Shown: piece by piece, positions 33,012 through 33,901 of the stretch
Position numbering within the stretch: position 1 is the stretch's first letter
How the letters are laid out: each line of letters begins with the position of its first letter
Source: Chloroflexota bacterium
GTDB taxonomy: Bacteria > Chloroflexota > Anaerolineae > Anaerolineales > Anaerolineaceae
Assembly: GCA_021779955.1 (NCBI GenBank)
Contig: JAJXZS010000002.1
Span: 1-33,901 of the forward strand
Length of the DNA: 33,901 nt
Direction of reading: 5' to 3'
Notes under the pieces: generated by a model
The model's database searches: none
What the model was told of the DNA's origin: nothing
The model's input: the letters and a program-made list of their open reading frames with translations, nothing else
Translations under genes and position numbers: made by a program

Positions 33012-33689
33012 ATGACCACGCTTTTGGTTCGGCACGCCCAACTCTTGGCAACCATGGATGACCACCGCCACGAAATAATGGATGGTGGTTTTTTTGTACG
33101 CGATGGGTTCATCGAGCAGGTGGGAGCGACCTCTGAACTGCCCCAGACTGCTGACGAAGTTGTCGACATGACAGGCCATTTGGTATTGCCTGGGATGGTG
33201 AACACTCACCATCACTTTTATCAGACCCTTACGCGCGCAGTTCCTGCGGCTCAAAATGCCAATCTCTTCAACTGGTTGAAAACGCTCTATCCGATTTGGG
33301 CGCGCATGACCCCGGAAGACATCCGCATCTCGACGCAGACCGCGTTGGCTGAATTGGCGCTCTCAGGTTGTACCACCGCATCGGATCATCTCTATCTCTT
33401 CCCCAACGGCTCGAAACTGGATGATGAGATCGAGGCGGCGGCACCTGTGGGCATTCGCTTGCATGCAAGCCGCGGTTCGATGAGCCTTGGCGAGAGCAAG
33501 GGTGGCCTTCCGCCTGACAGCGTCGTCGATTCTGAGGACAAGATCCTGGAGGACAGCGAACGTCTAATCAAGAAGTATCACGACCCGAAACCCGGGGCGA
33601 TGGTGCAGATCGTCCTGGCGCCATGCTCGCCATTCAGTGTCACAGGTGAGTTAATGAAGCAAGCCGCTGTTCTGGCGCGCGAGCTGGGA
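33012..33689 (+). CDS. 8-oxoguanine deaminase-like amidohydrolase, N-terminal part
   Basis: The frame begins MTTLLVRHAQLLATMDD and has the metal-site motif GMVNTHHHFYQTLTR (H66, H68). GCTTASDHLYLFPNG, SRGSMSLGESKGGLPPDSVV and MVQIVLAPCSPFSV follow, all typical of the 8-oxoguanine deaminase/chlorohydrolase group. This group deaminates 8-oxoguanine or related heterocycles, mostly in purine salvage. Only about 226 of ~450 residues are present. The alignment to the family breaks after LARELG at ~33689, where composition and frame change. The remaining metal ligands and C terminus are missing, so the fragment as given would be inactive. The gene is controlled by the promoter and paired palindromes upstream. 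Confidence 0.85.
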
Positions 33690-33901
33690 CGACCTTCAGG
33701 ACTTCTACGACGTCACCACCGACGCGATCCTCCGCGCCTTCGAGGACCGCGGCCTCGACTCGCGCCAGGTCTTCATCGGCGGCCTGGAACTGGGCGCGAT
33801 CTTCGGGACCAACCTCCGGCTCCGCGAGTTCCTCGCCCACTGCTCGCCGACCGCGACCGCGACCGCGAAGGGAGCCCGCCCGCTCAACGCCGCCTTCGCC
33901 G
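33676..33901 (+). CDS. Partial coding frame from a high-GC source
   Basis: From about 33676 a frame different from the amidohydrolase's reads WDDLQDFYDVTTDAILRAF, then EDRGLDSRQVFIGGLELGAI and more, open to the window end. 72 of 75 codons end in G or C, and the last 211 bases are about 71% GC by my count. Two stops (33652-33657) lie just upstream in this frame. I do not recognise the protein. The sequence is clearly coding in style but foreign to the rest of the contig, so it most likely comes from another genome joined here. Confidence 0.6.

Follow-up and report, generated by a model that had tools for sequence, protein, structure and literature searches.

The right end of the window, by which we mean the whole stretch of DNA analysed here (33,901 nucleotides, the entire contig G000:C14:1-33901), raises the question of why an amidohydrolase gene changes its base composition, its reading frame and its relatives within a few bases, just before the contig ends. 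The contig belongs to a binned genome, G000, of 2,828,368 bases in 56 contigs, with completeness 100 and contamination 3.19. On the basis of sequence comparisons, we consider that the last 221 bases of C14 are, with a probability of about 97%, an artefactual extension, in which planctomycete DNA was placed on a broken native gene. The features discussed below are collected in Table 1.

Table 1. Features at the right end of contig C14, with positions given in the window.
Feature	Position	Strand	Basis
Native 5ʹ portion (223 codons) of the gene for an 8-oxoguanine-deaminase-like amidohydrolase	33012..33680	+	family matches and relatives
Tract TTCTGGCGCGC, common to both parents, site of the join	33670..33680 (11 bases)	+	planctomycete homologues and start of C19
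Foreign tail, interior of a planctomycete glycoside-hydrolase-39-like gene	33681..33901 (221 bases)	+	read in frame 33676..33900

The gene starting at 33012 matched the Amidohydro_1 family (E 3.1e-17) and the 8-oxoguanine deaminase model NF006055 (E 3.5e-106). Close matches, with 69-85% amino acid identity, were present in 19 of 20 relative genomes, the twentieth (G013) giving only a weak match. In all 19 close relatives the best alignment ended at residue 224-226, and the relatives' own frame remained open for 461-627 residues in 18 of them and for 245 residues in G011. Within the terminal 1000 bases of C14, the first 700 had a GC content of 52.9% and the last 220 one of 70.9%, in agreement with the rise to about 71% reported in the initial annotation; among the 112 contig ends of G000 this rise ranks second, behind the right end of C31 (C31R). 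The same annotation described the amidohydrolase similarity as stopping at about 33676-33690, after LARELG. The stop itself is real, as indicated by the 19 relatives, but the join lies about ten bases further upstream, within 33670-33680, and the ELG of this motif is already planctomycete, the native reading being KYG (Lys-Tyr-Gly), as in relative L030.

Beyond the join, the coding signal had been described as shifting to another frame, with G or C at the third position in 72 of 75 codons, and we reproduced this count (70 of the 73 codons from 33682, plus CGC and GCG). When the 76-residue translation of the tail was compared with bacterial and archaeal genome contigs, at least 27 loci were found. 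Eighteen of the 27 listed, including the 15 best, bear planctomycete names, and the other nine belong to Hydrogenedentota (five), Bacteroidales, Kiritimatiellae, Opitutales and an entry named only 'bacterium'. The best protein match among those listed, 95% identical, was locus L002 from a Planctomycetales MAG. At the DNA level, the tail was 94.4% identical to L002 over 232 bases from 33670, with 155 of 160 bases identical at 33681-33840. L002 differs from C14 at 33681 and 33683, adjoining the join, which indicates that the true planctomycete parent is not among the loci found.

The tail match falls within an 857-aa ORF of L002, at residues 472-548, and this ORF carries a Glyco_hydro_39 domain (PF01229, E 9.6e-11, 41.6 bits, residues 430-798); the 76-residue translation of the tail itself had no Pfam match. 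The likeness to a planctomycete form of glycosyl hydrolase family 39 is that of the L002 ORF, of which the window carries only about 77 residues. Searching G000 with the 857-aa protein returned the C14 tail as the sole match and no other piece of the planctomycete gene. The 221-base tail had no match in eight genomes of the same genus, and among four genomes of the same order a single 34-base match was found, in one of the four.

If the amidohydrolase gene was broken at this point, its second half could be sought elsewhere in the bin, and a search of G000, using as query the corresponding half of the protein from a relative, located it at G000:C19:14-721 (E 7.5e-128, 80% identity, all 236 residues). 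The start of C19 reads TCTGGCGCGC AAGTACGGA, whereas C14 reads TCTGGCGCGC GAGCTGGGA. C19 thus begins 10 bases before the two contigs diverge, so that their overlap comprises 10 bases (33671-33680), and bases 2-724 of C19 form an open frame. When C14, cut after 33680, was continued with C19 from its base 11 onwards, a single open frame of 460 aa resulted. The whole joined protein scored 694.1 bits against the 8-oxoguanine deaminase model NF006055, above the cut-off of 532 bits, whereas the unjoined, chimeric frame of the window scored 357.3 bits and falls below the cut-off. The next ORF on C19 (MGMDSFWLQ...) corresponds, as judged by eye, to the next ORF in relative L030. At 33681-33840, C19 was identical to eight relatives at 109-121 of 160 bases, compared with 36-47 of 160 for C14, which is about the level of chance. 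In the organism, the amidohydrolase gene continues from 33680 into the start of C19, as supported by the open frame across the two contigs, by the score against the family model and by the order of the genes. A frameshift within one gene can be dismissed, as the new frame encodes a different protein with planctomycete relatives and the native continuation lies on C19.

The position of the join was then defined by comparing C14 with 13 correctly registered planctomycete homologues. At 33681-33840, C14 agreed with them at 106-155 of 160 bases, and at 33570-33669 at 15-24 of 100, no more than expected by chance. Within 33670-33680, four of the 13 loci were identical to C14 at all 11 positions, five at 10 and four at 9. 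Since four loci carry the complete tract and C19 starts with 33671-33680, TTCTGGCGCGC was present in both parents. One planctomycete locus, L005, is identical to C14 back to 33664, and with a planctomycete parent resembling L005 the two parents could have up to 17 bases in common here. The shared tract at the join is TTCTGGCGCGC and not GCGCGCGAGCTGGGA, which had been proposed as the microhomology: after GCGCGC, C19 has AAGTACGGA, so that GAGCTGGGA belongs to the planctomycete side only. For the same reason we dropped a shared tract of 20 bases (33670-33689), and likewise the idea that a de Bruijn graph had linked the two sides by a common word of 20-21 bases.

The two sides of the join therefore match different organisms (19 of the 20 relatives on the left; planctomycetes, among the matches listed, on the right), and the native continuation is found elsewhere in the same assembly, on C19 from its first base. 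The chimera of two organisms at a contig end, put forward in the initial annotation as the simplest explanation, is supported by these observations: the tail is planctomycete, the native 3ʹ half is on C19, and joining the two contigs restores a full-length gene. Under this explanation, a gap would have been left unclosed at 33680, where the true left end has only 10 bases in common with C19, fewer than the apparent smallest word of the assembler. A planctomycete fragment containing TTCTGGCGCGC would then have been attached at the gap instead of C19, whether because the assembler used a short overlap between ends or because a chimeric library molecule had formed at TTCTGGCGCGC, two routes that the present observations do not separate. 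C14 stops 221 bases past the join.

To characterise the assembly, we compared the contig ends of G000 (L047-L158) in all 6216 pairings and recorded exact overlaps. Three overlaps of 127 bases, one of 66 and eleven of 6-20 bases (6, 7, 8, 9, 11, 12, 14, 14, 16, 18 and 20) were found, and none of 21-65 bases. Inexact overlaps included further pairs of about 126-158 bases with one or two mismatches and a few of 67-79 bases with mismatches. A control in which one partner was reversed without being complemented gave two overlaps, of 6 and 7 bases. A second control, with 50 bases trimmed off both ends, was less clean: four overlaps had 6 bases, a single one had 11, and ten had 27-58, these ten being probably remnants of the long overlaps. 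All nine pairs overlapping by 8-20 bases (for example C17R-C23L, C15R-C20R and C53L-C56L) had a frame of 158-297 residues running across the join, and these pairs look like direct neighbours. According to Chen et al. 2020 (PMC7111523), a paper on metagenome curation, perfect overlaps between contig ends often equal the largest word size or one base less, depending on the assembler. The overlap lengths suggest a de Bruijn assembly with k of about 21-127 and unclosed gaps, in which true neighbours would have been left apart wherever their overlap did not reach the smallest word size. C14 and C19 resemble an unclosed pair of this kind, except that C14 was extended by 221 foreign bases. The 10-base match between them is no evidence by itself, because the scan contains 11 rows in which exactly 10 bases match, C14R-C19L being one of them; what counts as evidence is that the gene continues from one contig to the other.

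Between the two routes to the chimera, we give roughly an even chance to the possibility that, where coverage had a gap, the assembler used a short overlap to connect two dead ends and preferred the false neighbour. This route presumes that an assembler accepts an end overlap as short as about 11 bases. The false neighbour overlaps by 11 or more bases, compared with 10 for the true one, C19, and such gaps seem common in this assembly, as eleven pairs of contig ends stop at overlaps of 6-20 bases; the route requires, however, a planctomycete fragment that happened to start near 33670. The other possibility, to which we assign somewhat less than even odds, is a chimeric library molecule, formed by template switching at the shared tract, which extended C14 where no competing coverage existed. 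Template switching is able to use short shared tracts, and short reads are of the order of 221 bases, so that the length of the tail would be close to that of a read. Taken alone, however, this route does not predict that C19 should start within 10 bases of the junction. Among the papers listed on chimeric contigs and microhomology, none used the word microhomology in its title or in the opening of its abstract, and a search on gap closing by assemblers returned no matching paper.

Alternatively, the tail might be real, with planctomycete DNA having recently entered the amidohydrolase gene by horizontal insertion, in the whole population or in part of it. Such an event would account for the tail being clean coding DNA from one donor gene and for the interruption of the amidohydrolase gene. 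The initial annotation had kept it as an alternative; we regard it as very improbable, because an uninterrupted continuation of the gene exists in the same bin, starting at the junction. An insertion would be expected to leave foreign DNA bordering both flanks of the gene, whereas C19 starts with native sequence and the planctomycete protein is matched in G000 by C14 only. Nor would a target duplication at the border account for the 10 bases present on both contigs, as they are homologous to the planctomycete gene itself. In addition, the tail lies inside an enzyme gene and is without a Pfam match. A minority of cells carrying a real fusion of the gene with planctomycete DNA, arisen through microhomology at TTCTGGCGCGC, beside a majority in which the C14-C19 gene is intact, would be just as hard to credit.

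Three further GC-shifted contig ends of G000 (C31R, C49L and C7L) were searched against 12 relatives and against the genome itself, and the remaining ends were screened by GC content and overlap. C31R had no match in the 12 relatives; its last 342 bases (L133 659-1000) are 95% identical to G000:C18:88347-88690, and because of this match we interpreted this end as a repeat and rejected it as a foreign tail. For C49L, one genome of the same genus matched bases 62-370 at 70%, the outermost 61 bases being unmatched, and most of this GC-shifted end looks native in sequence. The outermost 82 bases of the GC-rich C7L (L053 1-82) aligned in none of the 12 relatives and the bases next to them aligned in several; these 82 bases may represent a further false tail or a variable region. 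At the opposite end of the window, we also noticed that a segment with uS11, uS4 and the start of rpoA (names assigned from reading the ORFs) is doubled in G000, at positions 1-996 of the window and at G000:C46:13331-14329 (L159), with 84.0% DNA identity between the two copies. This doubling suggests that a related strain or species was co-binned.

The C14 end is thus a matter of data quality only. Left as it is, it would introduce into databases a spurious 'horizontal transfer' and a truncated gene that is equally false. The case also illustrates an inexpensive check that works without reads, in which one searches the same bin for a contig that starts with the missing part of a broken gene, and for overlaps between contig ends that are shorter than the smallest word of the assembler.

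Chimeras of two organisms are described as rare and typically without paired-read support in Chen et al. 2020 (PMC7111523). The C14 end resembles the chimeric scaffold from a metagenome assembly presented in that paper in that two organisms flank one join and differ in composition and in relatives. It differs from that scaffold in that here the native continuation could be located on another contig.
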